Assembly: GCF_030269305.1 (NCBI RefSeq)
Contig: NZ_BSTC01000009.1
Location: forward strand, 248,001-312,000
Source: Kineosporia sp. NBRC 101731
GTDB taxonomy: Bacteria > Actinomycetota > Actinomycetes > Actinomycetales > Kineosporiaceae
DNA: 64,000 nt
Reading direction: 5' to 3'
In this document: positions 1-19,066 of the stretch, in pieces
How the letters are laid out: each line of letters opens with the position of its first letter
How positions within the stretch are numbered: position 1 is the stretch's first letter
Made by a program: the position numbers and the translations under genes
Notes under the pieces: model-generated
What the model was told of the DNA's origin: nothing
Database searches by the model: none
What the model saw: only the letters and a program-made list of their open reading frames with translations

Positions 1-3000
1 AGTATCGCCACAGCCGCCCACGGACGTCATCGCCTGTTCCAGGGCAGTGCGCAACGACCGTTGACCTCTGCGCTGCAGAGCGTGGCGACCGAGGCGGGCG
101 GCATCGGAGGGCTCGGGTTGCTGCGCCGCGCACTGGCGCTGGATCTGGTCCGGACGGCGCACCTGGCCCGGAACACCGCGATCGAGGCACTGGCCCACCG
201 CTTCAGCGAACCGGTTCTGCTGCCGGAACTTTCCCGGATGCTCGGGACGACGGTCGATCTTCCTCCCACGGTGCTGCCGGACGGACGCCGACTATTGCAG
301 CGGATGGGCGCGCAGGTCTTGACGGCGCAACGTACCGGTCGGGCCACGGATGTACCCGTACGGCTCGACGCCGGTACGTGGAACGCATTCTCCCAGGGGC
401 AGGGTCGCTCCGGGAGCGTGTCGTTCAGTGCGGGGGCCTGGATCAACCCCGATGCCTCGAGCACTCTCATGCCCTATTTCGTCGCCGGTGGCTCGTTCAC
501 GAGCGGCACGTCGACGGGGGTCGTGGGTTCTTCCGCCGGGGGCGCCGGCTACCGGACCACGTTCAGTGGTACCAGCGTGTCCTACCAGCTACGACTGGAT
601 GCCGAGGTGAGCAACCAGATCGTGAGTCCGATGCAGCAGGAGGACCGCCGTCCGGGCCCGGCCCCGCAGCCCGTACGCCAGGAACTGACTGTCACGCTCT
701 GGGTGCCGGAGGCGTTCGTCGAGGACTTCGAACGGGTTCTGGACGCACTGGGAGTCCCGGCTGAACCAACGGATACAACGGAGCCAACGGACACGGTTCC
801 GGTGGAGCAGCCGTCGCAGGCGCCGGAAGAAGTGGCGCCGGTGCTGTTGCGTGATCCACCCCCAGAGCTCAGCCGGGCGACCGGTCCGTCGGGTTTCACC
901 GGCCGACTGGGGCTGACCGGTGTTCAGGACCTGGCCCAGCAGTTCATGGCTGACCTGCGCGAGCTGGAGCACCATCGGGGTGAACCGATGCCCGAGGCCG
1001 CCGACCGCACGCCGGTGCGGGTTGACCGGTGGACGGTTCTGGAACGCAGAACGCTGTCCGAGTGGCTCAGCGCCCGGTTCGGCGCTCCGGACCTCCGTTT
1101 CCACCAGGACACCATCTTCTCCACCGGTGGGCTCACCGTGACCTACGAGCGGCAGTTGAGCAGCGGCGACGTCGAATACATCACCTTCCGTCTGGAGGGC
1201 CGGCGCGCGTCCTCGTCGCCCGACCGGGTGACCCGGGTCGATGATGTGAGCATCCTGGTCAAACCCAGTGGTTACAGCGAGCAGGACCGGTCCGCCTCCT
1301 CCAGTCGTGGTTTCCGGGGCACTCTGGGTGCTCGTGGATACCTCGACATCCCCTTGTCCTCAGAGCTGACCCTGAGCCTGCGGATGGCCGCCGGAGTGTC
1401 CGGGAACCTGTCGTCGAGCGGTGGAACCGGCGTCTATCAGAACGGTTACGTGGCCAAAGGACTGAGCTCGTCCGGTCCGGCGTGGGCCTTCCGGTATCCC
1501 GTCACCCTGACCACCCAGGTCTCGGTCGAACGGGTCCGGGGTCAGCGGGTACTACCGCTGCTCCTGGGCGGGATCGAGGCACTGGGGCGTGCCCTGACGG
1601 GTCGCCGTCAGCGAGTCTGGAGCCTGGCCGGCAGGGAGGGGACCGTCCCGGCAACAGCATCCTGGCTGGTCCCGGAGAACCGGACCGGGACCCCGCCCGT
1701 CAGGCCGCCCGTCAATCCGCCCGACCAGTTGCCGACGGGTCGGCAGGAAGATCAGGTGGACGCCACTGATGCTGACAGCGTTCCGGGAGGGACATCGTCC
1801 GTAGAGCTGGACCGCCCGGTGCGGGGAGGAGGCCTGCGGATCGGCGGCCGGCAGTTCGGTGGGGAATGGCTGGCGCAGCAGCTACACACGGGCGACGACC
1901 AGACCCGTGACGTGATCACCTCCCGCGATCGGGTGGTGTCGGTGGCGGGGATCGCCGATCTGCGGCTGGCCCTGGCCACGACCCTCATGAGGGTGGGACT
2001 CACCTCCGAAGCGGCGCATCGATGGGCCCGGACGGTGGTCACTCCCGAACAACTGAACGGCGTATTCGCCCTGGAGAAAGACGGTTTGGCCGGCCAGATC
2101 CGGCAGAGCCGGAGACTGGGCCTGCGGGAGGTGGAGTTCGCCGTCGTCCCGACGGTCGGTGAAGTCCAGGACGACGGTACCGAGGCCGATTTCATGACGG
2201 ACCTGGCGTCCGAGTACAGCGCTCTGACCTCGACCTCGGACTCTTGGTCCCGGGGCTGGTCGGTCGACGCCAACGTCAGGGTCGCGCTGAACCGGGCCCG
2301 TCGCACCGATGGCTTCGGCAACACGGTCGGTGAGGGCGGCTACCTTCAGCTCGGTCCGGGCTACAGCCGAAACACCACGACGAGCACCTCGAGCACACTG
2401 GACCGGTTCTCCGGGGGATCGGTGAGCGTGCCGATGCGTTACACCGGCCACACCGCTCCGGTCGACTGGCAGATCGTCGCGGTCTCCCGGATGTCCACGG
2501 CGAAAAACAGTTTTCGGCACAGCCATCAGTCCCACCGGCGGCGGGTCCGGGTGACCCGCGGCGTCACCTTCTTCTCGCCCGTGCCCGGCCGGTCACCGGT
2601 CGCCGGACCGATCGTCGACTCGACCGTCGGATCCGTCCTGCTGGCCGCCGACGAGCGGCAGAGTGCTCTTGACCGCCGGGTGCCCGAGTACCCGGTGCTG
2701 CCCCTGACCTCGGTGACGACGTCGTTGCTGCCCGTTCCCGGGGAGTCGTCCCTGACCTTGAACAACCCGGTTCTGGCCGAAGTCACCCGGCTGCTGCGCG
2801 AACACGCTCCCTGGTCTCTGGGGAGGTCGGCAGCGTTCGGGCTCTCCGGCACCACGGTGACAGCCGGGCTCGGCCGCATGCTGACCCCCGGTGTGCTGCT
2901 GAGCAACCTTCCGTTGCTGAGGGCCGGGGGAATGGAGTTCATCCTGGCGGGCGACGCTCTGCTGGGGGACCGGGTACTTCACCTGAGGCTACGAGCCGTT

Positions 3001-6000
3001 CGCGACCCCGAAGCCCGCGGGTATCAGCAGACACACGCGCACCCGGGCGCGACCGTGTCCAGCTACAACCGGGGCAGCGTGCGCCAGGGCACGGGCGAAG
3101 CCAGGTCGCGTAGCCTGACCCTGGGTTTCTCCACGGCGCAGACCTTCGACGGCCCGGCTCTGCCGACACTCTCCCGGGTTCAGCTGGTGACCGATCTCTC
3201 CACTACCAGGGTCCGCTCGGAACAGACGTCACGTTCCACCGGCGTCTACCGCTACGACGGTTTCGGGGTCACGGGTGACACCAGCTTTCTGGTGGGTGAC
3301 CTGGAGATCCAGATCGAGCTGGTGGTGGCCTGGCGGCCTTCCCCGGCCCTGAACGCGCTGACGCTGACCGCCGCCCACACCCTGGCCCGACGCGGTCAGA
3401 GGATGACCGGTGACCAGCCCTCGGCGGTGGCCACCCGGATTCCACCGGCCAAGGTCAGGATTCGCGAGACGGTGGCAGTTCCCACCGCCCAGCTGCGCCC
3501 GTCGCCTCCCACCACGGACCGCACCGCGGTCGTGACGCCGGTGACCGATTCCCTGCCGGACGAGATCCTCTTCACCGCGCAGCAGATCCAGAACCAGGAC
3601 GTGGTGCTGCGCCTGGATCCGGAGAAGCTCGGGCTGCTCCTGGACAGCTGGCACCGGTCGATCGCGAGTCACGGCGGGGATCACGCCGCCCTACAGGCCT
3701 GGGGCAACGCGGGCCGGGACGTCCTGCACATGCTGACCGACCCGGGTGTCCTGGAGAATCACCTGCTGCAGAACGGGACAGGTGGTCAGGCCTCGAACGT
3801 ATTCCTGCAGCAAGAGATCCGGGCTGACCGTCAGTTGACCGGGCGACTGGCGGTGAGTTTCGGGCTCACCGCGCCCACCACTGCGGGAACCTTCGCCGAT
3901 GCTTTCCTGCTCGGGGCGGCCGACACGATGCGGATGCGCGAGCACATGGGCAACAGCGGGGAGGGGAACGGCCAGAGCGGCAGTACCGGGTTCGGCGTGT
4001 GGGGCAACTTCAACGATCTCGCCCATATGCCGCCGGAGGGTTCGGACGAGCACCGGGTTCAGGTGCTGGCCCCGCCAGGGGCGACTCTGAGCAGCGACCG
4101 AAGTGTCCGGGCGGGGTCCGATCTGCGGACCTCCTCGGGTGTCGTCAGCAGCACCTTCAGCACGTTCTGGTACGGCCCGGTCTTCTTCGATGCCCAGGTC
4201 ACCTTCACGTTCGTGGCCACCCGGCAGGGAACCGCGTTCGGGACCACCGATGTTCCACTCGTCAGGTCGTTCCGGGTGCGCAACCTCCTGCAGGCCCTCT
4301 ACTCGCCGCAGATGGTGCTGGAACGCGCCGAGCTGGGGCAGCGGCTGCCGGTCCGGGTGCGATCGGGCTGGCTCCTGCCGGGACACGATCGTTCGCCGTC
4401 CCGGCTGAGCCGGGCCCAGCAGACGTCTGCGCTCGACGATCCCCGGATGACGATGGTTCAGCTCGACCTGACCCCAACAGCCGAGACCGTCGAGACAGCC
4501 GATGTGGGTGACCAGATGATCACCGCCTACGACGAGCAGCTGACACCCGCGCAGTTCGTCGCCCGCTACCTGGCGCCGATCGTGGACCATGACGATCGCA
4601 CCGAGGTGATGGTGCTGATGCCCAGCAGCGATCACCTGACCGGCCTGACTCTGCGAGCTCTGGCCGGCTCCGCCGGTCTGCGAGAAGGGCTGACGCTGGT
4701 GGCGCCGGTCGGTCCGGGGGTGTGGGAGGCGATCCGTTCCGGCGGTGACGGGGGCCGCCGGTTCTACGGGACCTGGCCGCGCGTCGCTGAACAGTTGCCC
4801 GCCCTGCTCCAGGAGCCGGACTCACTGGAGAGCCTGTACCAGGGGGTGCTCGGCGAACACGTCGTCCCGACAGAGAACCTGAGGCCGGACCCGGTCGATG
4901 GCGAGGTGCCCCGGCGGTCTCTGCTCAAGGTGATGACCGGTCCCGACGGCGAGGTGATGACCGGGGACGCCACCGATCCCAGGGTCAGGCAGACCCTGGT
5001 GGAGGAGTTCTCACGGCGAGGCGCCGAACTCGAGGGCGTCCGGGTGGCGGTCTCCCATGTTTCGGACGAACTGGCCCTCGAACTGGTCGCTGCCTCGGGC
5101 GCTTCCTTCTTCTACACGCCCGACGCCGTGCTGCGATCCGCCGACGGGTCGTTCTACGTGTCCACCGTCGTGCCCGGCCCACAGGTCCAGGGGCAGCCTC
5201 GGCCCGATGCCAGGAGCGGGGCCGGTTCGCAGAGCCTGCGCGGCTGGATGACGGCGGCACCGGTGACCCAGCTGGATCCGCAGACCCAGCAACCGGTTGA
5301 GAGTTTGCCGGACGGGTCGGGTCTGCTGATCCATGAAGGGGTGCTGTCCCAGCCGGTGGCACCCTGGGAGGAGCATCTGGCCGGTTCTCCCTACTTCCGG
5401 GACGGGACCTCTACCCGGTGGCACCAGATCGACGGTTCCACCGGAACGGCCCGCTGGACCTACGTCTTCCGGGTTGCCTCGGGTGTTTTCGTCACTGACC
5501 GGCCCGAACTCGACCGACAGGTGCTGGCGGAACCCCCGCAGGACCAGCTGGTCGTCCACACCCGCTTCACCGATCCCGGGCGGGCGCTGAGCGAGGTCGA
5601 GGTGACGACGCGGCATCTGCAGCTGTCGACCGTCGAAGTAGTGCACCGGGACGTACCGGGCGACCGTGCTACGGCATATTTCGTCGAGCGTCACGGGCTC
5701 GAGGTCGCCGGCGAGTGGGAGTTCGCCCGCATCCCCGCTCCCGAGACGACCGCCGTGTCACCGGACGTGGTCGACCTCCTGGAGCGGCTGCGTCAGGAGG
5801 TCGAGCCGGTCCAGTTCCGCTTCGTGGAGCGCACCCGGTGGGATGCACCCTCACAGCCGGATGCCCCCGCGAGGCTCCGGCGGATCCTGGACACGGAAGG
5901 AGAGCTGACGGCGCGGGACCTCGATTTCGCCCGCCGGATCCGGGCCCTGCTGACGGCCGCCCGTCCCGCGGTCCGGGTCGTCGGCTCGCAGCTGCCGCCG

Positions 6001-9000
6001 GTTCCTGCTGACGAAAAGCTGCTCACAGAACTGAGAAAAGCCGTCGATCAGGCCGGGCCGGATCTCGAGGGAATCCTGAACCGCTGGTCCGAGGCATCAG
6101 CGATGCAGTCAGGGCCGATGCAGCCCCGCACGGCCATGCTCTTCGAGGCCCGGGAGTATCAGCTTCCGGCCGAGGACATCCTGATGACCGATCAGGCTCC
6201 CGGACGTACCGTCACGGTGCTCGAACTGACGCAGATCATCCGTGTCGTGGGGCGCGAGGGGGTGACCGGTCAGCAGATCCAGGAGATGACGGAGCAGGTC
6301 CAGCAGGAGTGGGACCGAGCGGTGAACAACACGCCGGTGGTCTCGTACGCCGGGGAGCTGGTCCAGGTCCGATACCGCTGGGAGGTGGCCGAGAGCCACG
6401 GCCTGGCTCACCGGACGCTCGAGGTCTACCCACCCGGTGCTGTCCGACGTGCCGATGTCTCACGGGTCGGCCTGGACAGCGGGCCCGGCGTCGTGATCCA
6501 CGAGATCTTTCACGGATTCGGTGCGCCGGATCGCTACCTGGACCGCCGCCCCGTCGTCCCCGAAGACCCGGCCGCGCTGACCGGTGAGAATCCGGCCCGG
6601 TCGTGGAACGAGCGCACGCGACGTCTCGATGTTTTTCGTCGTGCGGACATTCAGGAGCACCGGCGCGAGGCGGGACCGGCCGGATTCATCCGGACGACCA
6701 CGACCAGAATTCCCCTCGCGCGCGATGTCGCACCCACCTTGATGGGGCGTGTGCCGGCCCGGCCCCGGATCACCATGCGGGATGTCTTCACCAGCATCGC
6801 CCTGGTCCGTGAGGCGGGGGCCGAGCACGACGTCGAGCCGGTGCGTCAGCTCTGGTCCGACTACCGCAGGCTTCGCACCGACGCGCAGGATGCGGCTACG
6901 GTCGGGGGCAGCACACCGGAACAGATCTCCGAGGTCCTGAGCGGCCTGACGCAGTCGTGGGTCCAGCGCGCCGAGCGGACGATGCGGAGCCTGGAGCGGG
7001 AACACAGCGCGATCGAACGCAGTCTGACGGTCACCGACCGGGACGGAGCCGATCTGACGCACCCACGGGCCGTAGAGCTCTCGGGACTGATGCGATGGAT
7101 CGACCGGCAGACCACGCGGGCCCGATCTCGTCCGCAAGCGTTCTGGCTGGCCGGAGCCGGCCAGGCCGAGGGGTTGGACGAAGGTGCGCACGAGGATGAC
7201 CTGGATCGGCCGGATCAGGACACCGAAACACCCGCGCAGGCACCGGACCCCGACGACATCGACGGTACCGACGACACCGAGTCTGCGGCGCAGCCCCGGC
7301 ACCGGCCCGGTGAACCGTGGATCACCTCTTCGGTCGCGACCTTCGGTAACGGGAGCTGGAGCCCGACGCGCTCGCTGGTCCACATCACACCGGTGCCGGA
7401 CACGGTGGTGACGCAGTTGCAGGAAGCAGTCATCGACCGGATCGTCGGGCCCGGTGGGCAGGACGTCGTGCTGAGGCGGGAGGTCCAATCGGTCCTGACC
7501 GCAAGGCTGCTGAGTACCGCCTGGGAGGCTTTGCTCTCCACGTCCGGCTATGCCCTACCGGTGATGCACGAGGGGAGGCGTTACCCGGTGGCTCTGCGGT
7601 TGAGTCTTTCCCAGCCTCGGGTGGAGGTCGTGAATCCGGACGAGGCGCAGCCCACCCCGATGGTCGCGGTGCAGCGCTGGACCTTCAGCCAGCCCGAGAA
7701 CGGCAGTACCGAGCGGACGTCGAACGTCCGCAGCGGTTCCGGCCGGGTCCCGTTCACCTTCGGGATCGGGTGGGGCTCTCTGCAGACGATGACTGTCTCC
7801 CCACAGCTGTCGGCGACGGTGAATCAGGTGTCGACCCAGGTGGACACCGGGATGAGCGTTCAGGCCTACTCCATCGAGCGCAGCCGGGAGCGTTCGTGGC
7901 GCTACTCGTTCACCATGCAGTGGCAGATGCAGCGACTGGACCGCGGCCTGGCCGACCTGGTTTCCGAGCAGCCGCAGCCCGCCGGTCTCTGGCGCACCGT
8001 GAATTCGACGACGGACGACCGCCTGGCGGTCTGGTTCCCGCACCACCTGGCCACCCACGAACCGGGTCAGACCAGAAAAGAGGAATTACCCCGTCTGGCG
8101 ACGCTGAAACTGGCCCCCGTGATCGAGGCGGAGAATTTTCCGAATGCACAGGCGCTGCTGCGGGACGTGATCACGGCATTCGAGTTCGGTCCGGGTGATC
8201 TGTCCGACATCGCCTGGGAGGGCCTGCGGACATTCCTCGATGAAGGAACCCTGCGGAGCAATCTGCCACTGATGCTCTGGGGCAACACGGTCGCCAGCCC
8301 ACTGCTCACCGATCGCTCCGGAACCGTAACCGGATACCTCCGGATGAGAGCGAGTTTCGCGGAGGAACTGGAGCCTGGCGGCGTCGCGATCGGTAACGGT
8401 GTACTGGAGTCGTACGTCGTGCGGTCCATGCGGGTCCAGCAGGTCACCACGACGCAGAATGCTCAGGGAATCGGTGTCAATCTTTCCCTCGGCTTCGGCA
8501 AACCTGACAAAGACCCCAGCTGGCAGATGTCTTTCGGAGCAGGAACAGCTCAGCGGCGCACTCACAACCTCTCGTCGGGGGGCAGCGCCCGGGTCGTGCG
8601 ATCGTTGCGGGTGGCGAACCGGATCCCACGGGCATCGGCGCAGTTGCGCCTGGAGGTGCAACTGGTGCGCCCTGAGGGGATCCCCCAGAACCCTCCGGCG
8701 GACTCATCTCTGGCTACGTCGACCTATCCGGTCGTTCTGCTGGTCGCCGGAAAGGAGCATCTCGAGGAAGGACCCTCGGAGGCGACCGGGAACGAGGCAA
8801 CGGAAGCGGCGGACCCGGGACGATTCCTGCCGCCGGAAATTCTGCACATGCGTAGCCTGGGCATGTCCACCACGCCGCTGGAGGTGGAGGGAGTCCAGGG
8901 GCTCTTCGACCGGGCGCAGGACCTACTGCGGGACAAGGGATTCCTGCCGGTACAGGAGCCCGGCCTCTTCACTGTGATGGGAAATTCCGTCACGGATCAG

Positions 9001-12000
9001 CACACGGTGCGAAACCTCATCGGCCCGGACGCCCTGGCCGCTGCGCGGCTGCAGAATCAGCGAACCTTCGACCAGGCGAGATCACGAGCGGCGCTACGCA
9101 CGGCACTGGACGATGCGGTGTCCGGTGGACATCTGATGGTCTTCCAGATGCCGGGGCCTACTCATGTCCGCCGGATGACGCTCGATCTGCGGATCCGGCG
9201 TAGGTACGACGATCCGGCGGCTCCTCATCGGGGAACGTCGATGACGTACCTCCTGCCCAAGACCCAGACCCTGAACTTCGTCGGGTCCAGCGTCGCCGGC
9301 GAGGAGACGTTCTCGCAGGTGCCGCGCAACGTCAACAGCAGCTTTGGGGTCACGTCCGGGTCCAACGTCACTGTGCAGGCTCTGGAGTACAGCTACGGCC
9401 GGAGCGAGAGTCGCGCATCAGGGCTCGGAAATGGGCACGAATACTACCTTCTCAGTCCCACCTCACAGGGCAGCGCCGTGTTCACCGTGCCGGTGACGTA
9501 CGGGATGAGCGTGGCCGAGACCTTCGGGAGCACGATCGAGTTACCGCCGGTGGACGGTGATATCACTCTGGCTGTGCCCGAATTCCGGCTGCTGGCAGCG
9601 CCCTCCGGCTCCACGGGGATGGATGATCCCAGGCCCCGCACGGTGACCGACCATGATGACACCGAGCTGAAAGCACTCTCCGGGCAGGAGCAAGATGCTG
9701 GGCCGGCGCCGGTCCCGGGGGAGACCGACAGCGTGGTGGTCGATGTCCCGGTCATGGACGACCCCGATTCCCCGGCCCTCATGACCCTTCAGCGCCTGGT
9801 CCTACCCGAGACTGCCATCGTCGACCGGATCGAGGGCGCCGGTCTGATCCAGAAGCTGGTCCTGGACGTATTGTCGACGAACGCTGCTGCGCAGCAGTCG
9901 GTACCGGATCGCGACGGCGGTGATGCAGAAGCGATGGATCGACAGGACTCGCCGGTCCCGTACGTGAGGATGGAGCAAGCGCCCGAGAACAGTGCGGTCA
10001 TCTGGGCCCGGGCCAGGGCCCGTGATGTGTCGGAGGTCGGCCGGTGGTTGCGCGATGGTGCGATCGGCACCGACATGACCAGTCCGGAGTCGTTCGGTCA
10101 TGAGGTGCTGCGCACTGCTCTGTCGACCGAGATGCTGCACGGCAACCTTTTCCGGATCTTGCGGGGCCGCTATGTGGTGGAGGGTGTGGCGACGGCCGGC
10201 TGGCTCGGAGGAACCGATGTCCAGATCGAGATCCAGGCATACCTGAGCGACGTGGAAGTCATGGAACGACCTCCGCTGATGGACGGCGAGCGCTGGCTCC
10301 AGTCAACGGTCTCGTCCACCCGGAGTACCAGCACCGGCCACGACGTCCGTACCGGTGTTTCGGTGAAGGGCGATCTCTCGGTTACTCATGATGACGAACG
10401 GAAGAAAGTTCTTTCGTCGGTCGGGATGTCCGGTCGCTACCTGGCCGGGCGCGGTGGGCAGCACAGCGAATCGTCGAGTGACACCAGCAGTGTGATGCGC
10501 GTGACCAGCGAGGACGATGTCCAGACGCATCGCTTCCGGGCTCAGGTGACGTACGTGGTGACGGTGCGTTCGGGCATCAACAACGCAGCGTTCTCCCAGT
10601 TGCCGCAACAGCTGGTGCGGCACCAGCAGGTCACGCAGTTGGCACTCGACCTCCCGAACGGTATCGAGTTCTACCTGGTCGACAACGATCTGCACCACTA
10701 TCCCGAACTGTCGGTGCTGACCCGTCCCACGGTTCCGCCGGCTGACGAGGCTGACGAGGTTGAGCGGACGGGTATCAACCGGCCACGGTTACCCGCCTGG
10801 TACGTGTCGAGCGGTGGCGAGCTCGGGTACGGCACGGTCACCGAGGTTCATCAGGCCGGTGGCCGCAGCGCTTTCGAGAACGAGATTCTCGGCCGGGTCG
10901 AGTCGGTGGCACCGGGTAGCACGAAACCCGGAAGTGCCACGTATGTTCCGGGTCTGGCGACCCGGATCAATGAGCATGCCTCCTCGCTCGGTCTGCGCAC
11001 ACAGGTCAACCTGGGGCCCAGCGGTGTGCTCCGTTTCCACTTCGTCTACCGCGGCTGGAAGGGACCACAGCTGGTCGAGATCGCGCTGCGGGCACATCCG
11101 CGAAGTCCGGGCACTCTGTCCGGGATCAGTGGCCATCGGGTGAAGGTCGGCGGACTGGACAACGTCAACTCTCACATCAGTGGAAAGGGTTCCCGACTGG
11201 GTGCCCCCGGGGTGACGCGGACCAGCGACACCAGTTCCCGAAGTCATGAGCTGAGCCTGGGGCTGACCCGCGGATACCCGCAGGAAGACGTGACCTGGCC
11301 CGGGGCGATCACCGCGACCAGTCGCAGTGACATCACCCAGGCCCGGACCTCGTCCCGCGAGCAGCGGACCTGGCAGCGGAACCTGCACGACACCAGTGAG
11401 TTCCTGGTGCCGTACGACTTCGAGGTCACCGTTGAGTCCAGGCTCATGACCGAGATGCTGATACCGCTGCTGGTGCAGTGGGTGGCCACCGCCGTGGTGC
11501 GGAGCGGGCCGGAGCTGGCTGCGGCGGTCGGGCTCGCCGTCATCAATCTGGTCAGGGTCCTGCAGTTGGGTGCGCAGGCGGAGCAGCAGGGGCCGGCTGA
11601 GGGCAGGGCCGATCTCCGCGACTCCGGCAGCGGTGTGGTCCAGGCCCAGGTCGCGATCCGTTTCCACACCAAGGAGACCGAACCGGGCACTGATCCCCTC
11701 GCCGAGCACGGCATTCGGCCCGCGGTGCTGGAGAACGACCCGCGCATCGCCGCGTCGGTGCGGCCCGATGAGGTGTCGATCGATATAGAGGACGAGGTGG
11801 ACGAGGGGGACGGGAACGGCGAGGCCGTCTCGCGGTCCTTGGTGCAGGAGGCGATCAACCGAGGCGAATGGACGCCTCGGCGCCCGGTGCAGGTGTACCG
11901 GCTCGACGGGATCGAGCAGCTGCAGGAGGCCCTGGTAGAGGTGGGAGCCGGCGGACTGAATCCCTCGCTACCGCCGACGAGTACATCCAGCGAGGGCATG

Positions 12001-15000
12001 TTCGTCCGGCTCAACCAGTTCATCGACGCCGGGGCGTTGGAGCTGGGCAGTGGTGGTGATGCGTTCCTCTCCGGTGGAAACGCTTCCGGTATCACGATCA
12101 GCCTCACCATCCATGGTGCTGAGGTAGATCGTCGCAGTAAGAACATCGGCATCGACCACATCGAGGTGAACAACGACGGATCGTTCGAGCAGACGGTCAG
12201 CCAGAACGGTGTGAACCTCGGATTCGCGCCCACTGTCGGGCTGGGGGATTCCACGAAGCTGGGTCTGTCGACTCCGGTGACCGGTGCGGTGACATCGCGG
12301 GGCAACCGGTCGGTGCTGAACAGCCAGCGCCGGGAAATTCTCCGGTTCGGAACCAGCACCGAGACGAATGCCGCTGCCACCTTCGGATACCTGGTCCGGG
12401 CGGTCGCGGTCCTGGAGATCAGGGGTGCCGGGAGGCAGCGCTGGGTGGTCAGCCCGATCCTGCTGCGCAGCACCGAGAAGCCCCCCGTGGAAACGGTGTC
12501 ATCCACTCAGGGGCAGGAACCTGGGGATACCGAGGTAGGGCCTGCGTCAATGGCCCAGGAAACCCAGGAAACCCAGGAAACCCAGGAAACCCAGGAGGCC
12601 CAGGAAGTCTCGGAAGTTGAAGCGCCATCAACGATTCCGGAAACGTTCGAAGTATCTGATGTTTCAGAAGATTCCGATCTGGTGGAGCCCTCCGATGCCG
12701 GGTTCTCCCCGTCTCCGGCGTCTCCGGCGTCTTCGGGGTCGTCACCGGGCCCGCGGGAGCGGGACCCGAGGGACCCCCGGGACTGGACCCGTCGCAAGCA
12801 GCCCGACCGGCAGTGGGCCGACCCGGTGCTCTCCGAGGAAACGGCGGTGTTCCACCGGAGCTGGGAAGCGCTACTGCCGTCGCAGATCTGGGCCCTGGAG
12901 TCGGCCGGTCTGCGAGGTGCCGCACGACACGAGCAGATGAGGCAGCAGGCGATCGATCGGGTCGCCGAGCTGAATCGCGCATACGGCGCCGGCTATCCGC
13001 TCGCCCGGGCGGCTCAGATCGTGGCTCAGGCACATCATCACCTGCGGACCTGGCCGATCGGGCAGGTCTACCCCTCGTCCACGGAGGCGCCCGGTGCCCT
13101 CGACACCATGGACTATTTCCTCAAAACGCTGACCCGGGAAGAATACTTCCCGACGTCCTGGCAGCGCCGTCCAGCGGATGGGGATCCGGCGGCCAACCGG
13201 GCTCAGGGGGTGGCGGAACAAGGCATGGGTTACGGGCAGGCTATGGTCCGGCGTTCCCCGGAGCAGTCGGAGGAAGACCATCACGACTCGTTCCTGGCGA
13301 AGCAGCCCGATCAGATGCCCACCTATGCTGTCCTCCTGCCGCGACCGGCCGGGCGCACGTCGGTGGTGTCCGGGCCGGGAATTGTTGTGACGATGGACGA
13401 GTCAGTTCGCGAGAGAGCGACGTTCACGCCCCTACCGAGCCGGGACTCTCTCGACGGATACACCGATCAGGAGCGTCTGTACAGTCTGATCGCCCTGGGC
13501 CCACCCGACCAGGTGCGCTACTTGCTGGGAGAGGCCACCGATTTCCGGTACGACCAAAAGCTTCACCAGGAAATCGATCTGGCCGATCCGTCGGCTCCGC
13601 CGGCGGCCTTCGAGGCCCAGATCCACGGCCCGCTCGGCTGGCACCAGGTGAGCGAGATCGTCATCGCCTGGGGGCCCGGTGATGAGGGGCAGACGGCGTT
13701 GAGCCAGGAAGACGCGGTGAAGTTCCAGCGTGACCTGCGCCGGTTCGCGCGGAGCAGGTCGCACGCCTTCACCGTCGAGATCGTGCGGGTGGCTCCGGAC
13801 GGGCCGTCGGTTCCGCCCCTCTCACCCGGCCGGCAACACCGTCATGGTCTCCTGAGCGATGCGCCGGCTGATCCGTCGGCACCCCTCGACCCGCATCAGG
13901 GACGGCCGGCCAGGAATGCCCGCTCCTGGTCCGACAGCGAGGAGGAGACCAAGGACGCCGAGATCTGGTCCGATGAGGAGTCCGAGGCGTCCGAGGATTC
14001 TCAGGAGACGCTCACCCCGGAGCCGGACCTGGAGATGACGGGCGAGTTCTCGCTGTCTGCCCTCCCTGGTCCGGACGGGCGGACGCAACAGACGCTGGTC
14101 TGGGTGGACCGTCAAGATCGGCCCATCGTCGTCGACGCCCGCGACCCCGCGGTGGCCGATCGGCTGACACTTTTCGCCGACCAGCGGCGCTCGGTGGGGG
14201 AGAGCCTCGACCAGGTGGTCATTCTCGCGGCCGGGGTGAGCCCGGACCTGGCCCGGCGCCTGGCCGGCACCGAGGGCGCGCAGGTCTGGTTCACCTCGGG
14301 CAACATCACCACGTTCGATGCGACCGGTGCACCGGCGTACCTGTCGGCCCCCTGGGCCCGGACGGCGCCGGCTCCCGGCTGGCGCTCGTCCGACGACACC
14401 ACGCCGCCCGGGACCCGACCGGAGCGTCTGTTCGTGCTGCCGGAACCGGCCTGGGCGACCGACGTCCGCGACCTCGTCGGATCCTTGGCCGGTCGTACCC
14501 CGTTCCTGCTCCTGCACCAGCTGGACGCCGCCTTCGCGGTTGCCGTCCACCTCCATGAGGTCCCCTCGGGAATCGTGCTGTCGGACCGGCCGGGCGCGCA
14601 TCGTCAGTACACCGACCGCGCGCCGGGCGCCCGGCCGGTGGTCCACCTCGCGTTCACCGCAGCGAACCTGCACCTGGCCGCGCGCCATCGGATCACCTCC
14701 GCGTTCGCGCAGAGGGGCCTGACCCCGGAGATTCTGAGTCACCGTCCGGGGCTGGAGACTGCGGGAGACGACGAGCACACGGTCTGGCCGGACCTGGCAC
14801 CCGGGCCGCTCATCGTGGCCACCGGAACAGCGAGGGCTCCGGTGAGCAACGAGTTCGGTGAGGTTCCCGAGGATCACCGGGTGCACCTGGCCGACAACCT
14901 GCAGAAGTACCGGCGGAGTCTGCACGGCTCCGACCTGGCGGGGGCCCGGTTGGTGATGTCCCGGACGCCTTCCTCCTTCGCCGCGAACCTGGCGGCAGCC

Positions 15001-18000
15001 ATCGGCACGCCGATCTGGTTCACCCGCGACCAGATCATGGCCGACACCGATCTGAACTCGCTGTACTTCGTCTCCACCCAGCTGGCCGACCCGGCGGCCG
15101 GATGGGTCCGGGCGCAACCCGGTATCGATCCGGATACGCCGGCCGGCACCGGATCCAGCCGGTACCTGAGTTACCCGATCACCGATCCTGAGCGACGTCT
15201 GGGTGCTCTGCCGTCCGCGGTCGACCATCTGGAGTCGGCGCTGCGGATCCGCGAGCCGCGCAGTGCTCTGCTCCGTACGATGAGGGTCTTCCGGATTGCT
15301 GCCGGCTGGCTGGTCAGCGAGCGGCCACGCCTGAACCGCAGTGCCTCTCTGATCGCCCCGGAGCACGAACAGCTGGTCGTGCTCTACGACATCGACGACG
15401 ACGATCTGGCCGCGGTGGCCCAGACGGCGATGCGAGAGCGGTGGGAGACGCTGTTCACCGGGCGTCCGTCCCGTACCCGCGACCGGGACGGCGAGGCACT
15501 ACCGGGAGCCGTCCTGCCCGTCGACCACCGACGGCTTCGGACGGCTGGATCCGATCCGGTATTCACCTATGAACCGTCGTCGTTCGTGGTGGACATGACC
15601 CGGCCCCGATGGCGCACCGCGGCCCCGTTCATCCGCACGCCGCTGTCACCGGAAGTGCTGGTGCCGATCGAGCTGGCCCGGGCCCGGACACCCGCCCGGC
15701 AGTTTGCCGCCGGCACGTACGACCCTCGTCAGGGGCGCCGCAGCGATGCTGTCGCGGCTGACACAGCAGCGATTCTGGACGGTCGGTCGGTACATCAGCT
15801 GACCCGGGCCCAACGAGACCTGGCCCGGCAGATGCTGGGTCTGATCGAGCAGATGGCGCGACCGATCGCGGGCCGGGCCCTCTCCGACGCCGACGTGCTG
15901 GCCTCGCTGCAGGTCGCGCTGGGACCGGTCGGCCTGGCCCGGATCATCGATCAACTGATCGCGGACAGCGGTCAGTTTCCGGAGCATGCTCTCGCCGGGC
16001 TCTCGCTGACGGAAGCCGGGTACGAGGAGCCGTCGGACGGGGCCGCGATCAGCACGGTCTCGCCGAGCGGGGCCCGGGTCTGGGCCGACCGGCTGGCCGC
16101 CCTGGTGACACGGGATCGTCGCCTGCACAACGGGCCGATCGATCCGCTGGCCCCCATGCCCTTCGAGTTCCGGACGTTCGCTCTGGACACCGGTACATCG
16201 GTGGTCGAGCTGAACCAGCAGGTGTACTTCGATCTCGACGACGGGGCGGACCACGAGGCGCTGAACTCGACGCTCGATGCTGTCGGCCGACGCTGGGACG
16301 ACGCCCTGAACGACGCTCCGCCTCTTGAGGTGGAGGGCCACCGATACCACCTGCGCTACCGCTGGGAACGCGTGGACGAACCGTTCGGGGCCCACCACAT
16401 CATGAGGGTGCGGGGAGCCGGTGACCCGATTGACCGGGAGCACACGTTCGTCATCAACGACTCCACCGAGGCGGGCGTGCTCCTGCACGAGATCGCCCAC
16501 GGATTCGCTCTGGAGGACCGCTACGAGGAGGGCTCCTCGGCGGTGCTGCGAGGAACGGTCCGGTACACCCCACGTCGGCAACGCCCGAGCACGTTCCTCG
16601 ACCTGGCGCCGAGCCTGATGGGCGGGCAACAAGGGGAACATGAGCTGGGAGACCGCATCACGATGCGCGATCAGCTGAGGAACCTGCTGATGGTGCTCGG
16701 GAAGGTCCCCTCCGACAGCGGCTGGCTGCAGGAAGTGATGGACAGCCGGGCCGAGGTGGTGAACCGCCTGAGAGATACGGATCTGCCGGACGAGGATCGC
16801 GCACAGGAGTGGCAACGTCACCACACGGTGCTGGAGAGGGTACGCACGGAACAGGTGGCGATCCGCGACCAGGCGCGGCAGGACCTGCGCTGGGAAGTGG
16901 TCACCGGTGCGCAGGACCGGCTCGCCTGGCTGGCCGCCCGGCAGAGCGACGTCGCCCGGCACCGGGACGCGTTCGGGAGGCTCCTCGTGCGTGATTCCGG
17001 ACGATCCGGTCACCGGGTGGCCGAATGGGTCGACGCGGCGTTCGGCCGGCAGCCCGACATCCAGCCGACCGGTTCCGTGACCGACCGGGTCGGTCGAGAA
17101 CTCGGTCGGGAACTGGGGAGCACCGACCTGACGGCGGACGAGCCCCTGGTCCTGATGATGTCGGGGTTCTCGGAACAACTGGCCCGGCAGACAACCACCA
17201 GCCACGGGGCTGCGTTCTTCTTCACCCCGGATCGGGTGAGGTTCTCCGGAGCTGACCACGGGGAGATCTACTACGCGGTGCCGGCCACGGCCCACTGGCC
17301 GGCCCTGGGCTGGCGCAGCATCGCCCCGGACCGCTACGACGGTGCTGTTCAGGGCCGCGAGCATCAGCTCTCCTGGCCGGCCCCGCCCTGGGACCAGCAG
17401 TTGGCCGACGTGTCTGGCGTACCGGTGGGGGAGTTCCGTCGTCGCCCGCTGGGAGGCGTACAGAATCAGCCGGCCGTGGTGACGTACGAGTACCGGGTGG
17501 CGTCCGGGCTCGTGGTGTCGGACCAGGCGCGGGTCACGACCACTCTTGAACAGGCCCCTGGATCGGTCCCGCTCATCCACACCGATATCGCCGCTCCGGA
17601 CTGGGCGGCGCTCGCCGCGGACAGCCTCGTCGATCGACTCGGCGCTGCCGGTCTGGCGACCGAGCGCGGCCAGGACCCGCACGAGGTGGCTGGACCGCGT
17701 CCGCCCGAACTGGCCTGGGCCGGGGCGGACGGAGAATTCGTCATCGCCGACGCCGGGGACCCAGGGGTGGCCGAGCGCCTCGTGGCCTTCTTCACCCTGC
17801 ACGGGGAACGGCTGAACCAGGCGGTGCTGCGGGTGTCTCACGTCTCGTCCGAGCTCGCCGCCCAACTGGTGGAAGCCTCGCGGGTGCCGTTCTGGTTCAC
17901 CCCGGACCAGATTCATCAGGCCGATGACGGCGCCTGGCTCGTGGTCGATTCCGTGCCGGCCGGCGGCTGGCGCCGGATCGAGCCGGATCTGGCCGGGCCG

Positions 18001-18963
18001 GGTGCACCGGTGGCCGGCCTGCCGTTGAGTCAGTGGTCCGCACCGACCACCCGGCCGGTGACCACCGGGCCGTTCGACGGCCTGACCCTGGAACCGGGCG
18101 TGGGCTGGGACCTGGCTCATGTGCGGTTGCGCTCGTGGAACGTGATTCCGGTGCGGTGGTCAGGCCGGACCACGCGTTGGGTGGCCTGGGTCAACGGTTA
18201 CGGTCAGGTGATGGTTCTGGACGGCACCCAGCCCGGCGTCATGACGGAGCTGTTCGGCGCTCTCACCCAGATCGGCCCGGAGGCGAACGGTTCGCTGCTG
18301 CTGATCTCCCGGGTCGAAGAGACGGTGGCGGTCGGTATGGCCACGATGTACGGACTCTCGTTCCAGTTCACCAGTGATGAGATCAGAGTCGTGCAGGAGG
18401 ATCAGCACCCGACCCGTTTCTTCGTCCGGCCGCAGTGGGGTCTGGACGCTCCGGCACCCTCCGGGGGCTGGTTGCGCACCGTGGTGGTCGACGAGGAAAC
18501 GGTGACCGTCGAACCGGTGAGTGCTCTCTCTCACCCCTCTCCGGGCCGGCTGGACGAGATCCTCGCCGGCGGGGCGTTCCACCAGGGGTTCCCCACGCGG
18601 TGGCAGGACAACGGGACCGGCCCGACGTTCTACCTCACTCTCACCCCCGCCGGACTGTTCGTGACCGACAGGATCGAGCCCGACCCGACCGTCATGGCGG
18701 ACGAGCCGGGTGACCGGATCCGGGTGGTGACCAGGTTCCAGGATCTTTCGGTGGGCCCCGCGATGCTGCCGCGCATCCTGCGTGACCTGGGGATGGAGCC
18801 CGACAGCCTGATCTTTGAGACGCTGGACGACGACCGTGCCGCGCTCTCCGACGACTCGTCAGATCAGGACGACGCAGACTCGATGTCGGACGACGACTCG
18901 TCTGATCAGAGTGATGACAGTTCGGAGGTCGAGATCTCCGATGTGGAGGAGAGGGTCTGGTGA
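1..18963 (+). CDS. Giant cysteine-free multidomain protein, 5' end outside window
   Basis: The frame is open from base 1 to the TGA at 18961, so at least 6,320 residues are present and the true start lies upstream. I found no Cys and only about 40 Lys. Order seen: Ser/Thr-rich beta-like modules (about 61-4500); first FTxD repeat (4939-5130); metzincin-like motif HEIFHGFGAPD with a TLMG Met-turn (6499-6747); acidic linker (about 7190-7310); more Ser/Thr modules (7320-12470); QET repeats and a Pro/Ser linker (12556-12830); a segment with EAQIHGP (13324-13671); acidic linker (13930-14040); two FTxD repeats; second metzincin-like motif (16486-16620); three more FTxD repeats; Asp/Ser tail (18820-18960). 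The function is unknown. The layout resembles the giant polymorphic-toxin or 'lonely Cys' type proteins of actinomycetes, and a surface or secreted role is inference. No co-directional partner gene follows closely. Confidence 0.9.
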   Translation, partial: SIATAAHGRHRLFQGSAQRPLTSALQSVATEAGGIGGLGLLRRALALDLVRTAHLARNTAIEALAHRFSEPVLLPELSRMLGTTVDLPPTVLPDGRRLLQRMGAQVLTAQRTGRATDVPVRLDAGTWNAFSQGQGRSGSVSFSAGAWINPDASSTLMPYFVAGGSFTSGTSTGVVGSSAGGAGYRTTFSGTSVSYQLRLDAEVSNQIVSPMQQEDRRPGPAPQPVRQELTVTLWVPEAFVEDFERVLDALGVPAEPTDTTEPTDTVPVEQPSQAPEEVAPVLLRDPPPELSRATGPSGFTGRLGLTGVQDLAQQFMADLRELEHHRGEPMPEAADRTPVRVDRWTVLERRTLSEWLSARFGAPDLRFHQDTIFSTGGLTVTYERQLSSGDVEYITFRLEGRRASSSPDRVTRVDDVSILVKPSGYSEQDRSASSSRGFRGTLGARGYLDIPLSSELTLSLRMAAGVSGNLSSSGGTGVYQNGYVAKGLSSSGPAWAFRYPVTLTTQVSVERVRGQRVLPLLLGGIEALGRALTGRRQRVWSLAGREGTVPATASWLVPENRTGTPPVRPPVNPPDQLPTGRQEDQVDATDADSVPGGTSSVELDRPVRGGGLRIGGRQFGGEWLAQQLHTGDDQTRDVITSRDRVVSVAGIADLRLALATTLMRVGLTSEAAHRWARTVVTPEQLNGVFALEKDGLAGQIRQSRRLGLREVEFAVVPTVGEVQDDGTEADFMTDLASEYSALTSTSDSWSRGWSVDANVRVALNRARRTDGFGNTVGEGGYLQLGPGYSRNTTTSTSSTLDRFSGGSVSVPMRYTGHTAPVDWQIVAVSRMSTAKNSFRHSHQSHRRRVRVTRGVTFFSPVPGRSPVAGPIVDSTVGSVLLAADERQSALDRRVPEYPVLPLTSVTTSLLPVPGESSLTLNNPVLAEVTRLLREHAPWSLGRSAAFGLSGTTVTAGLGRMLTPGVLLSNLPLLRAGGMEFILAGDALLGDRVLHLRLRAVRDPEARGYQQTHAHPGATVSSYNRGSVRQGTGEARSRSLTLGFSTAQTFDGPALPTLSRVQLVTDLSTTRVRSEQTSRSTGVYRYDGFGVTGDTSFLVGDLEIQIELVVAWRPSPALNALTLTAAHTLARRGQRMTGDQPSAVATRIPPAKVRIRETVAVPTAQLRPSPPTTDRTAVVTPVTDSLPDEILFTAQQIQNQDVVLRLDPEKLGLLLDSWHRSIASHGGDHAALQAWGNAGRDVLHMLTDPGVLENHLLQNGTGGQASNVFLQQEIRADRQLTGRLAVSFGLTAPTTAGTFADAFLLGAADTMRMREHMGNSGEGNGQSGSTGFGVWGNFNDLAHMPPEGSDEHRVQVLAPPGATLSSDRSVRAGSDLRTSSGVVSSTFSTFWYGPVFFDAQVTFTFVATRQGTAFGTTDVPLVRSFRVRNLLQALYSPQMVLERAELGQRLPVRVRSGWLLPGHDRSPSRLSRAQQTSALDDPRMTMVQLDLTPTAETVETADVGDQMITAYDEQLTPAQFVARYLAPIVDHDDRTEVMVLMPSSDHLTGLTLRALAGSAGLREGLTLVAPVGPGVWEAIRSGGDGGRRFYGTWPRVAEQLPALLQEPDSLESLYQGVLGEHVVPTENLRPDPVDGEVPRRSLLKVMTGPDGEVMTGDATDPRVRQTLVEEFSRRGAELEGVRVAVSHVSDELALELVAASGASFFYTPDAVLRSADGSFYVSTVVPGPQVQGQPRPDARSGAGSQSLRGWMTAAPVTQLDPQTQQPVESLPDGSGLLIHEGVLSQPVAPWEEHLAGSPYFRDGTSTRWHQIDGSTGTARWTYVFRVASGVFVTDRPELDRQVLAEPPQDQLVVHTRFTDPGRALSEVEVTTRHLQLSTVEVVHRDVPGDRATAYFVERHGLEVAGEWEFARIPAPETTAVSPDVVDLLERLRQEVEPVQFRFVERTRWDAPSQPDAPARLRRILDTEGELTARDLDFARRIRALLTAARPAVRVVGSQLPPVPADEKLLTELRKAVDQAGPDLEGILNRWSEASAMQSGPMQPRTAMLFEAREYQLPAEDILMTDQAPGRTVTVLELTQIIRVVGREGVTGQQIQEMTEQVQQEWDRAVNNTPVVSYAGELVQVRYRWEVAESHGLAHRTLEVYPPGAVRRADVSRVGLDSGPGVVIHEIFHGFGAPDRYLDRRPVVPEDPAALTGENPARSWNERTRRLDVFRRADIQEHRREAGPAGFIRTTTTRIPLARDVAPTLMGRVPARPRITMRDVFTSIALVREAGAEHDVEPVRQLWSDYRRLRTDAQDAATVGGSTPEQISEVLSGLTQSWVQRAERTMRSLEREHSAIERSLTVTDRDGADLTHPRAVELSGLMRWIDRQTTRARSRPQAFWLAGAGQAEGLDEGAHEDDLDRPDQDTETPAQAPDPDDIDGTDDTESAAQPRHRPGEPWITSSVATFGNGSWSPTRSLVHITPVPDTVVTQLQEAVIDRIVGPGGQDVVLRREVQSVLTARLLSTAWEALLSTSGYALPVMHEGRRYPVALRLSLSQPRVEVVNPDEAQPTPMVAVQRWTFSQPENGSTERTSNVRSGSGRVPFTFGIGWGSLQTMTVSPQLSATVNQVSTQVDTGMSVQAYSIERSRERSWRYSFTMQWQMQRLDRGLADLVSEQPQPAGLWRTVNSTTDDRLAVWFPHHLATHEPGQTRKEELPRLATLKLAPVIEAENFPNAQALLRDVITAFEFGPGDLSDIAWEGLRTFLDEGTLRSNLPLMLWGNTVASPLLTDRSGTVTGYLRMRASFAEELEPGGVAIGNGVLESYVVRSMRVQQVTTTQNAQGIGVNLSLGFGKPDKDPSWQMSFGAGTAQRRTHNLSSGGSARVVRSLRVANRIPRASAQLRLEVQLVRPEGIPQNPPADSSLATSTYPVVLLVAGKEHLEEGPSEATGNEATEAADPGRFLPPEILHMRSLGMSTTPLEVEGVQGLFDRAQDLLRDKGFLPVQEPGLFTVMGNSVTDQHTVRNLIGPDALAAARLQNQRTFDQARSRAALRTALDDAVSGGHLMVFQMPGPTHVRRMTLDLRIRRRYDDPAAPHRGTSMTYLLPKTQTLNFVGSSVAGEETFSQVPRNVNSSFGVTSGSNVTVQALEYSYGRSESRASGLGNGHEYYLLSPTSQGSAVFTVPVTYGMSVAETFGSTIELPPVDGDITLAVPEFRLLAAPSGSTGMDDPRPRTVTDHDDTELKALSGQEQDAGPAPVPGETDSVVVDVPVMDDPDSPALMTLQRLVLPETAIVDRIEGAGLIQKLVLDVLSTNAAAQQSVPDRDGGDAEAMDRQDSPVPYVRMEQAPENSAVIWARARARDVSEVGRWLRDGAIGTDMTSPESFGHEVLRTALSTEMLHGNLFRILRGRYVVEGVATAGWLGGTDVQIEIQAYLSDVEVMERPPLMDGERWLQSTVSSTRSTSTGHDVRTGVSVKGDLSVTHDDERKKVLSSVGMSGRYLAGRGGQHSESSSDTSSVMRVTSEDDVQTHRFRAQVTYVVTVRSGINNAAFSQLPQQLVRHQQVTQLALDLPNGIEFYLVDNDLHHYPELSVLTRPTVPPADEADEVERTGINRPRLPAWYVSSGGELGYGTVTEVHQAGGRSAFENEILGRVESVAPGSTKPGSATYVPGLATRINEHASSLGLRTQVNLGPSGVLRFHFVYRGWKGPQLVEIALRAHPRSPGTLSGISGHRVKVGGLDNVNSHISGKGSRLGAPGVTRTSDTSSRSHELSLGLTRGYPQEDVTWPGAITATSRSDITQARTSSREQRTWQRNLHDTSEFLVPYDFEVTVESRLMTEMLIPLLVQWVATAVVRSGPELAAAVGLAVINLVRVLQLGAQAEQQGPAEGRADLRDSGSGVVQAQVAIRFHTKETEPGTDPLAEHGIRPAVLENDPRIAASVRPDEVSIDIEDEVDEGDGNGEAVSRSLVQEAINRGEWTPRRPVQVYRLDGIEQLQEALVEVGAGGLNPSLPPTSTSSEGMFVRLNQFIDAGALELGSGGDAFLSGGNASGITISLTIHGAEVDRRSKNIGIDHIEVNNDGSFEQTVSQNGVNLGFAPTVGLGDSTKLGLSTPVTGAVTSRGNRSVLNSQRREILRFGTSTETNAAATFGYLVRAVAVLEIRGAGRQRWVVSPILLRSTEKPPVETVSSTQGQEPGDTEVGPASMAQETQETQETQETQEAQEVSEVEAPSTIPETFEVSDVSEDSDLVEPSDAGFSPSPASPASSGSSPGPRERDPRDPRDWTRRKQPDRQWADPVLSEETAVFHRSWEALLPSQIWALESAGLRGAARHEQMRQQAIDRVAELNRAYGAGYPLARAAQIVAQAHHHLRTWPIGQVYPSSTEAPGALDTMDYFLKTLTREEYFPTSWQRRPADGDPAANRAQGVAEQGMGYGQAMVRRSPEQSEEDHHDSFLAKQPDQMPTYAVLLPRPAGRTSVVSGPGIVVTMDESVRERATFTPLPSRDSLDGYTDQERLYSLIALGPPDQVRYLLGEATDFRYDQKLHQEIDLADPSAPPAAFEAQIHGPLGWHQVSEIVIAWGPGDEGQTALSQEDAVKFQRDLRRFARSRSHAFTVEIVRVAPDGPSVPPLSPGRQHRHGLLSDAPADPSAPLDPHQGRPARNARSWSDSEEETKDAEIWSDEESEASEDSQETLTPEPDLEMTGEFSLSALPGPDGRTQQTLVWVDRQDRPIVVDARDPAVADRLTLFADQRRSVGESLDQVVILAAGVSPDLARRLAGTEGAQVWFTSGNITTFDATGAPAYLSAPWARTAPAPGWRSSDDTTPPGTRPERLFVLPEPAWATDVRDLVGSLAGRTPFLLLHQLDAAFAVAVHLHEVPSGIVLSDRPGAHRQYTDRAPGARPVVHLAFTAANLHLAARHRITSAFAQRGLTPEILSHRPGLETAGDDEHTVWPDLAPGPLIVATGTARAPVSNEFGEVPEDHRVHLADNLQKYRRSLHGSDLAGARLVMSRTPSSFAANLAAAIGTPIWFTRDQIMADTDLNSLYFVSTQLADPAAGWVRAQPGIDPDTPAGTGSSRYLSYPITDPERRLGALPSAVDHLESALRIREPRSALLRTMRVFRIAAGWLVSERPRLNRSASLIAPEHEQLVVLYDIDDDDLAAVAQTAMRERWETLFTGRPSRTRDRDGEALPGAVLPVDHRRLRTAGSDPVFTYEPSSFVVDMTRPRWRTAAPFIRTPLSPEVLVPIELARARTPARQFAAGTYDPRQGRRSDAVAADTAAILDGRSVHQLTRAQRDLARQMLGLIEQMARPIAGRALSDADVLASLQVALGPVGLARIIDQLIADSGQFPEHALAGLSLTEAGYEEPSDGAAISTVSPSGARVWADRLAALVTRDRRLHNGPIDPLAPMPFEFRTFALDTGTSVVELNQQVYFDLDDGADHEALNSTLDAVGRRWDDALNDAPPLEVEGHRYHLRYRWERVDEPFGAHHIMRVRGAGDPIDREHTFVINDSTEAGVLLHEIAHGFALEDRYEEGSSAVLRGTVRYTPRRQRPSTFLDLAPSLMGGQQGEHELGDRITMRDQLRNLLMVLGKVPSDSGWLQEVMDSRAEVVNRLRDTDLPDEDRAQEWQRHHTVLERVRTEQVAIRDQARQDLRWEVVTGAQDRLAWLAARQSDVARHRDAFGRLLVRDSGRSGHRVAEWVDAAFGRQPDIQPTGSVTDRVGRELGRELGSTDLTADEPLVLMMSGFSEQLARQTTTSHGAAFFFTPDRVRFSGADHGEIYYAVPATAHWPALGWRSIAPDRYDGAVQGREHQLSWPAPPWDQQLADVSGVPVGEFRRRPLGGVQNQPAVVTYEYRVASGLVVSDQARVTTTLEQAPGSVPLIHTDIAAPDWAALAADSLVDRLGAAGLATERGQDPHEVAGPRPPELAWAGADGEFVIADAGDPGVAERLVAFFTLHGERLNQAVLRVSHVSSELAAQLVEASRVPFWFTPDQIHQADDGAWLVVDSVPAGGWRRIEPDLAGPGAPVAGLPLSQWSAPTTRPVTTGPFDGLTLEPGVGWDLAHVRLRSWNVIPVRWSGRTTRWVAWVNGYGQVMVLDGTQPGVMTELFGALTQIGPEANGSLLLISRVEETVAVGMATMYGLSFQFTSDEIRVVQEDQHPTRFFVRPQWGLDAPAPSGGWLRTVVVDEETVTVEPVSALSHPSPGRLDEILAGGAFHQGFPTRWQDNGTGPTFYLTLTPAGLFVTDRIEPDPTVMADEPGDRIRVVTRFQDLSVGPAMLPRILRDLGMEPDSLIFETLDDDRAALSDDSSDQDDADSMSDDDSSDQSDDSSEVEISDVEERVW
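6499..6747 (+). other. Metzincin-like zinc-protease motif 1 within giant protein
   Basis: The segment reads HEIFHGFGAPD, which matches the metzincin signature HExxHxxGxxH/D with Asp as third ligand, as in snapalysin-type proteases. It is followed 81 residues later by TLMG at 6736-6747, a plausible Met-turn, and then by ITMRD. An upstream strand-rich region (VRYRWE near 6370) is shared with the second copy. A zinc-protease fold is therefore likely, with both His, the Glu and the Asp present; activity is inference. Confidence 0.65.
12556..12609 (+). repeat. Tandem 9-bp repeat (CAGGAAACC) encoding Gln-Glu-Thr
   Basis: Six head-to-tail 9-bp units, the first four identical and the last two diverged, encode a QET ladder. 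The unit keeps the frame, so gain or loss of copies only changes linker length. It sits at the junction between the Ser/Thr-rich modules and the C-terminal third of the giant protein. Confidence 0.9.
16486..16620 (+). other. Metzincin-like zinc-protease motif 2 within giant protein
   Basis: The segment reads HEIAHGFALED, then SLMG with its Met at 16618-16620, then ITMRD. It is clearly homologous to the copy at 6499: both share an LRYRWE/VRYRWE strand upstream, DRY after the third ligand, and the (S/T)LMG plus ITMRD tail. The signature Gly before the third ligand is Ala here, so this copy may be less active or inactive. The spacing to the Met-turn is shorter than in copy 1. Confidence 0.6.
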
Positions 18964-19066
18964 CGGTCGGTGGCCTCGTCCCGCGGTCGTGATCATGCTG
19001 ATGTTGACGCCGGCTTTACTCAAGCAAAAGGTTCAGCCGTCGCCCCGGCTCCGCTTTTCGGCTTTC

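Follow-up and report, generated by a model that had tools for sequence, protein, structure and literature searches.

The window analysed here, 64,000 nucleotides from Kineosporia sp. NBRC 101731 (C9:248001-312000 of its genome, G000), opens within the gene of a giant protein that contains two metzincin-like zinc-peptidase domains, M1 and M2. The gene lies on the + strand and runs from an ATG at C9:237756, which lies 10.2 kb before the start of the window and follows a ribosome-site-like AAGGA, to 266963; its product has 9,735 residues. Residue numbers of giants are given as open-frame codon numbers, the start Met of the window's protein being 7 in a frame of 9,741 codons. GC content by codon position is of coding type throughout the window part of the frame (GC1/2/3 0.71/0.51/0.82). 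The gene and the zinc-site features are listed below in window positions; motifs were read from the sequence, that of the M1 ITMRD also from the model.

1..18963, + strand: giant protein, C-terminal 6,320 residues, single open frame; full gene G000:C9:237756-266963
6118..6819, + strand: M1, metzincin-like domain 1 (model residues 421-654, span matched to metzincins)
6499..6537, + strand: M1 HEIFHGFGAPDRY, containing HEIFHGFGAPD (6499-6531), with two His, Glu, Asp as third ligand and a candidate Tyr switch
6736..6747, + strand: M1 TLMG Met-turn
6769..6783, + strand: M1 ITMRD, start of a predicted helix, with an Arg nearly invariant in alignment A4
16171..16707, + strand: M2, metzincin-like domain 2 (model residues 36-214, span matched to metzincins)
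16486..16524, + strand: M2 HEIAHGFALEDRY, containing HEIAHGFALED (16486-16518), Ala replacing Gly
16612..16623, + strand: M2 SLMG Met-turn
16657..16671, + strand: M2 ITMRD

A sequence-only reading of this DNA had reported HEIFHGFGAPD and HEIAHGFALED, each with an (S/T)LMG and an ITMRD motif, between 6499 and 16620. Both sets were found where it had placed them and in one open frame, except that the ITMRD of M2 (16657-16671) falls just past 16620. Both copies have HExxH and the Asp third ligand, and the conserved Gly is indeed replaced in the second, by Ala. M1 and M2 share 29% identity in an 11-row alignment (A1) and 25% in a 28-row alignment (A4). In a tree of 60 sequences M1 grouped with the copy from the giant on contig C5 (support 100), and these two with M2 (support 98). 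By sequence comparison, M1 and M2 are two divergent copies of one domain family, which we call M. Between M1 and the C5 copy, a single pair compared over 188 codons, dN was 0.28 and dS 0.99, and the ratio of 0.29 indicates constraint.

The family is spread through large open frames. M1 as the query gave seven matches in its own genome, and an 11-row profile gave 15 in seven open frames, the shortest of 2,812 and the longest of at least 17,664 amino acids (aa). At E 0.001 or better, nine of 58 genomes had a match (own included), among them all six of the genus Kineosporia, which hold 1 to 15 matches each in frames of 1,369 to 23,998 aa; a scan of named genomes gave two loci with relatives, in Kineosporia mesophila and K. 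babensis. The 23,998-aa open frame, at about 465-513 kb of G005:C12 in the same genus, has seven M-profile matches, one of them a fragment that lacks the zinc site. At E 1e-6 or better, matches were found in at least 11 of 394 genomes of the class and at least 8 of 396 of the phylum (own included in both), counts that are lower bounds because at most six candidates were scored per genome. Outside the genus, M-bearing frames from the class search were mostly long (up to 19,630 aa), with some of 640 and 678 aa, and the phylum search added frames of 354, 572 and 624 aa.

Conservation is concentrated at the presumptive active site. All 44 places in the genus were tabulated, giving 45 hits after three duplicates were dropped; 40 reach the zinc region and five are fragments that do not, and the profile used to align the 40 was built from 28 of them. 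The first His is kept in 39 of the 40 copies, Glu in 40, the second His in 39 and Asp in 40 (HExxH 39/40), Tyr stands two residues after Asp in 37, and the Met-turn Met, judged from sequence, is present in 37 of the 38 copies that reach it. The motif Gly position is more variable (G 30/40, N 5, T 2, A 2, F 1; G or N 35/40), and since 10 of the 40 copies have no Gly, its loss from M2 is ordinary variation. Ranking the columns over the 38 rows of sufficient length puts the two His, Glu, Asp, Met and Tyr in the first six places, followed by an Arg (0.92), against a mean column identity of about 25% in the 28 selected rows of alignment A4. That alignment was built without L036, L042, L044, L046, L048, L051 and later-fetched copies, some of them degenerate, and its five invariant columns therefore overstate how conserved the family is; alignment A3 contains poorly aligned partial rows. 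One genus copy, L051, has lost both His, and outside the genus some copies have no Met or have Glu for Asp.

According to PMC12237041, the metzincin motif is HExxHxxG/NxxH/D, snapalysins and thuringilysins use Asp as their third ligand, and a "tyrosine switch" may lie near the zinc. M1 matches this motif in full, whereas M2 has Ala at the Gly/Asn position, and the Tyr two residues after Asp fits the place of the switch. The M family keeps a Met-turn, unlike some Asp-zincins, which may have none according to the relevant part of PMC3890501. Structure prediction of both domains had been proposed, and when their AlphaFold models were compared with the PDB, the 50 matches listed for each were all metzincins, with moderate Z scores. 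The predicted order of elements in both models, a five-stranded sheet, a backing helix, an active-site helix and a C-terminal helix, is that of the metzincin clan. Together, the family-wide conservation pattern and the fold comparison of both domains bear out the description of these domains as metzincin-like.

We also compared the family with named peptidase families. Pfam and NCBIfam gave no match above the shown cut-off on the window part of the giant, NCBIfam having been run on this part and the giant on contig C3. Across 11 copies, the best Pfam matches were to M6 (4/11, E 0.0014 at best) and M7 (1/11, E 0.028); a PDB profile search matched snapalysin (E 0.00082) over 20 residues. Aligned by hhalign, the M profile matched M7 with a probability of 95.9 over 22 columns and M6 with 91.2 over 26. 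The M6 cut-offs were missed by M1 (TIGR03296, 14.1 bits against 110.8) and by the C3 paralogue (PF05547, 14.6 against 22; TIGR03296, 21 against 110.8). In the whole genome, PF02031 (M7) had no match at E 0.001, and four ordinary M6 matches lie elsewhere. Because sequence similarity is confined to the active-site helix, membership of M1 and M2 in M7 or M6 was rejected. Snapalysins (M7, e.g. 1c7k, 4hx3) differ further in two Cys that are invariant in 14 aligned members and absent from M1 and M2. Immune inhibitor A (M6, thuringilysins) shares the motif HExxHxxGxxDxY with the M family; in igalysins (M64) the motif is given as HExxHxxxGxxD in the corresponding passage of PMC12237041. Set apart from M7 and M6 by profile comparison, M is most probably a metzincin-type domain of an apparently unnamed family.

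The giant begins with a WXG100_2 domain (PF25547; E 3.7e-14, 53.4 bits against a cut-off of 27), which occurs at two loci of this genome, both of them giants. The only other Pfam match was a sub-threshold one to EspC, and the recognised toxin domains seen in relatives were not found in the window's giant. Upstream on the same strand are EccC (C9:223.9-226.9 kb), EccD (E 9.5e-43) and a 121-aa EccB N-terminal part (E 3.9e-11), then an 817-aa frame without a Pfam match and a beta-helix plus AAA protein, followed toward the giant by an ATPase with weak similarity to ParA, a YbaB-like protein and a 144-aa frame whose PE match (E 0.004) is sub-threshold. No whole EccB was found at the locus. An EccC-type ATPase lies within 15 kb of four of six giants and at 27 and 171 kb from the other two. 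Under random placement a mean of 0.39 giants fell near an EccC-type locus, and four or more did so in 0.035% of 20,000 trials. This test covered six of the seven M-bearing frames, the one of 2,812 aa being excluded; it drew on nine EccC-type loci, five of which score under the curated cut-off, and used approximate ends for two giants. The giant probably leaves the cell through a type VII secretion system. An inverted repeat, CGGCCGTGACCA...TGGTCACGGCCG (L008 9675-9755), between the PE-like frame and the giant gene start is possibly a terminator or attenuator.

The frame of the giant has two Cys in 9,741 codons, neither within M1 or M2. Four other giants have 0/17,664 (C9:1-52997), 0/6,131 (C25:1-18398), 8/9,763 and 5/10,461, and nine frames neighbouring the giant have 29/5,301. 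Such scarcity would be the expected look of a disulphide-free chain made for export; it may hint at export in an unfolded or oxidising setting, and it would exclude cysteine-switch latency within the window's protein. One of the two Cys lies upstream of the window in giant residues 2763-2938 (L008 18024-18551), a region 53% identical to part of the C5 giant, with no Pfam match, that looks papain-like by eye. Contigs C9 and C25 both start, at position 1, with an identical giant coding sequence, which points to a repeat common to both as the cause of the break in the assembly, and the giants at C9:1 and C25:1 are incomplete at the 5' end.

Comparison of the window part of the giant with itself showed that M is accompanied by two further repeated modules, A in six copies and B in several. 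The rows below rest on self-BLAST repeats, combined for module A with hidden Markov model (HMM) repeats and alignment A5, and for B1 with the model.

4930..5187, + strand: module A1, first part of the A-B-M unit; alpha/beta in the model, no Cys
5344..5670, + strand: module B1, ASGVFVTDRP region; beta-rich in the model
14095..14388, + strand: module A2
14860..15114, + strand: module A3, about 540 aa before the M2 zinc motif
17071..17319, + strand: module A4
17710..17979, + strand: module A5
18181..18432, + strand: module A6

Of the 12 M motifs in five giants of this genome, 11 are preceded by a module A at a distance of 465-698 residues; the remaining one, C3 2333, is in a giant where module A is weak. 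The closest match to A1-B1-M1 is in the C5 giant (50% and 59% identity), where the unit is near the C-terminus rather than mid-protein as in the window's giant. Matches in other Kineosporia species were weak (two of six genomes at E 0.001, own included), suggesting that the unit evolves fast or is patchy. In 24 loci from outside the genus, the stretches up to about 500 residues from M showed no module A. For the folds of A and B the model is weak and M1 filled the listed PDB matches; a PDB profile search with module A gave nothing (best E 0.13). Module A might be a degenerate cysteine-protease domain (CPD or "lonely Cys"), but none of the 20 A copies listed has a Cys.

Distant relatives place M beside recognised domains. 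Used as the query, a distant M copy encoded in a different genome of the class matched 14 plasmid records, all from Streptomyces, of which five were examined; M1 itself gave no plasmid match at E 0.01. The S. atratus relative (4,787 aa), encoded beside eccC, eccD, eccB, WXG100 and YbaB genes, has M at 1238-1363, EndoU in two stretches (best 1460-1614) and, at 2002-2085, an additional M-like stretch that is incomplete. That of Streptomyces sp. SAT1 (8,748 aa) has a sub-threshold WXG100_2, then Gln_deamidase_2 at 4606-4705 and M at 4992-5162. In Streptomyces sp. NBC_00055 a 2,887-aa protein starts with WXG100_2 and has an amidoligase at 2527-2725, with no HExxH..D motif; the remaining two are annotated as hypothetical. 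A 572-aa frame from a different class of the phylum starts with an eCIS core domain and has M toward its C-terminus, and one distant M relative carries peptidoglycan-binding domains.

We consider it highly probable that the window encodes a metzincin-type peptidase domain within a type VII-linked giant protein. The proposed mechanism is supported in its shared domain family, predicted metzincin fold, conserved catalytic residues and type VII-type N-terminus and neighbourhood. Zinc would be bound by His, His and Asp with the Met-turn beneath, and Glu would act as the general base. The giant would leave the cell via the adjoining ESX system and act as a multi-domain toxin, and the M domains would be its proteolytic payload, which once delivered would cut the proteins of a competitor or of another target. 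We give about an even chance to M1 and M2 being two zinc-endopeptidase copies that serve as this payload in a nearly Cys-free, type VII-exported giant, and regard as equally finely balanced the claim that payload rather than self-release is the main job of the M domains. An effector or a self-processing protease, the two roles suggested by the sequence-only reading, are both plausible.

Payload is favoured over self-release because the order of M relative to other domains varies, M can sit near the C-terminus, and copies in the same protein are divergent. The S. atratus order weighs against it, since M directly N-terminal to EndoU speaks for release. Were the M domains processing peptidases, they would cut the giant in cis or trans after export and free neighbouring domains, and the recurring spacing of M after module A (11 of 12 motifs, 465-698 aa, in five giants) could set the cut site. 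This account deserves attention but is unlikely: the domain order is inconstant, M following the Gln-deamidase in SAT1 and lying toward the C-terminus of the eCIS protein, and several divergent copies per protein would exceed the needs of one cleavage. Alternatively, the giant could be a secreted or surface protein for nutrient scavenging or adhesion, with M domains as general extracellular proteases rather than toxins. Pectate lyase genes adjoin, most of the giant has no Pfam family assignment, and some distant relatives occur in frames of 354 to 678 aa, including the one with peptidoglycan-binding domains; however, EndoU and Gln-deamidase domains in relatives' proteins, the type VII gene neighbourhood and the very large frames of most relatives make this improbable.

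It is also conceivable that the M domains are catalytically dead and kept as structural or binding modules, as the loss of both His from L051, of the motif Gly from M2 and of Met from several copies outside the genus might suggest, but the retention of HExxH (39/40) and Asp (40/40) despite a mean column identity of only about 25%, with M1 and M2 complete, renders this very improbable. Chance occurrence of the motifs in a long protein has a negligible probability. From the composition of the 9,741-codon frame, about 0.3 HExxH and 0.004 HExxHxx[G/A]xxD are expected and two of each were found; two HExxH would not be extreme alone, but M1 and M2 are members of a single family, the surroundings of their motifs are conserved and their predicted folds agree.

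The payload reading can be extended to the genus and its relatives, which may export through type VII systems exceptionally large multi-domain weapons, many with divergent metzincin arrays, so that one polypeptide would deliver several proteases with different targets. We offer this tentatively and think it rather doubtful, and hold the same view of its further particulars, namely that such weapons would include frames as long as 23,998 aa, with little or no Cys in several of them, and a metzincin family not previously defined. Should it hold, a metzincin family that no Pfam or NCBIfam model was found to cover would be spread through giant type VII-linked actinobacterial proteins, offering a handle on the function of these giants, new zinc proteases to draw on and a way to test secretion-system export of chains of 10,000 to 24,000 residues.

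Ten frames downstream of the giant were scanned with Pfam for context. Two pectate lyase genes lie near the giant gene (window 18815-20776 and 27386-28567, Pfam), and the minus strand carries an AbiEii nucleotidyltransferase and AbiEi antitoxin pair (window 22272-24181) and RTX calcium-binding repeats (window 37714-38571). In the C3 giant (L018 1502-10000), piece residues 1554-1589 gave a weak TcdA/TcdB glycosyltransferase match (E 0.0028), below cut-off.

Among known systems, the WXG100_2 N-terminal domain and ESX gene neighbourhood recall CpnT-type type VII substrates, from which the giant differs in its size (9,735 aa) and its A-B-M units. Polymorphic toxins are approached by the M relatives that share proteins with EndoU and Gln-deamidase domains. 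The PVC/eCIS metallopeptidase (PF13699) likewise places a zinc-peptidase motif inside secreted toxins, and one distant M relative bears it as a separate domain, but its signature, given as HExxHxxQ-E in the section of PMC3482391 on this family, differs from the HExxHxxGxxD and Met-turn of the M family. The same source described, in 2012, giant actinobacterial toxins of more than 10,000 aa with multiple peptidase domains, two of them anthrax-lethal-factor-like metallopeptidases, the longest in its set having 13,652 aa (SACTE_5178), as well as caspases, ARTs and MCF1-SHE (toxin passages of PMC3482391). Paired metzincin-like domains in such a giant had seemed undescribed to the sequence-only reading, which holds in part: no published account of the 23,998-aa frame, the A-B-M unit or the metzincin-like family with its repetition was found in open-licence PubMed Central, whereas giant multi-domain actinobacterial toxins with two metallopeptidases, as those passages describe them, are a known kind. 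The window's giant resembles them in being very large, multi-domain and actinobacterial with two metallopeptidase domains, and differs, by their published description, in that its domains are metzincin-like with Asp as the third ligand. M is most likely a new metzincin-type domain within the already described giant actinobacterial multi-domain toxins.

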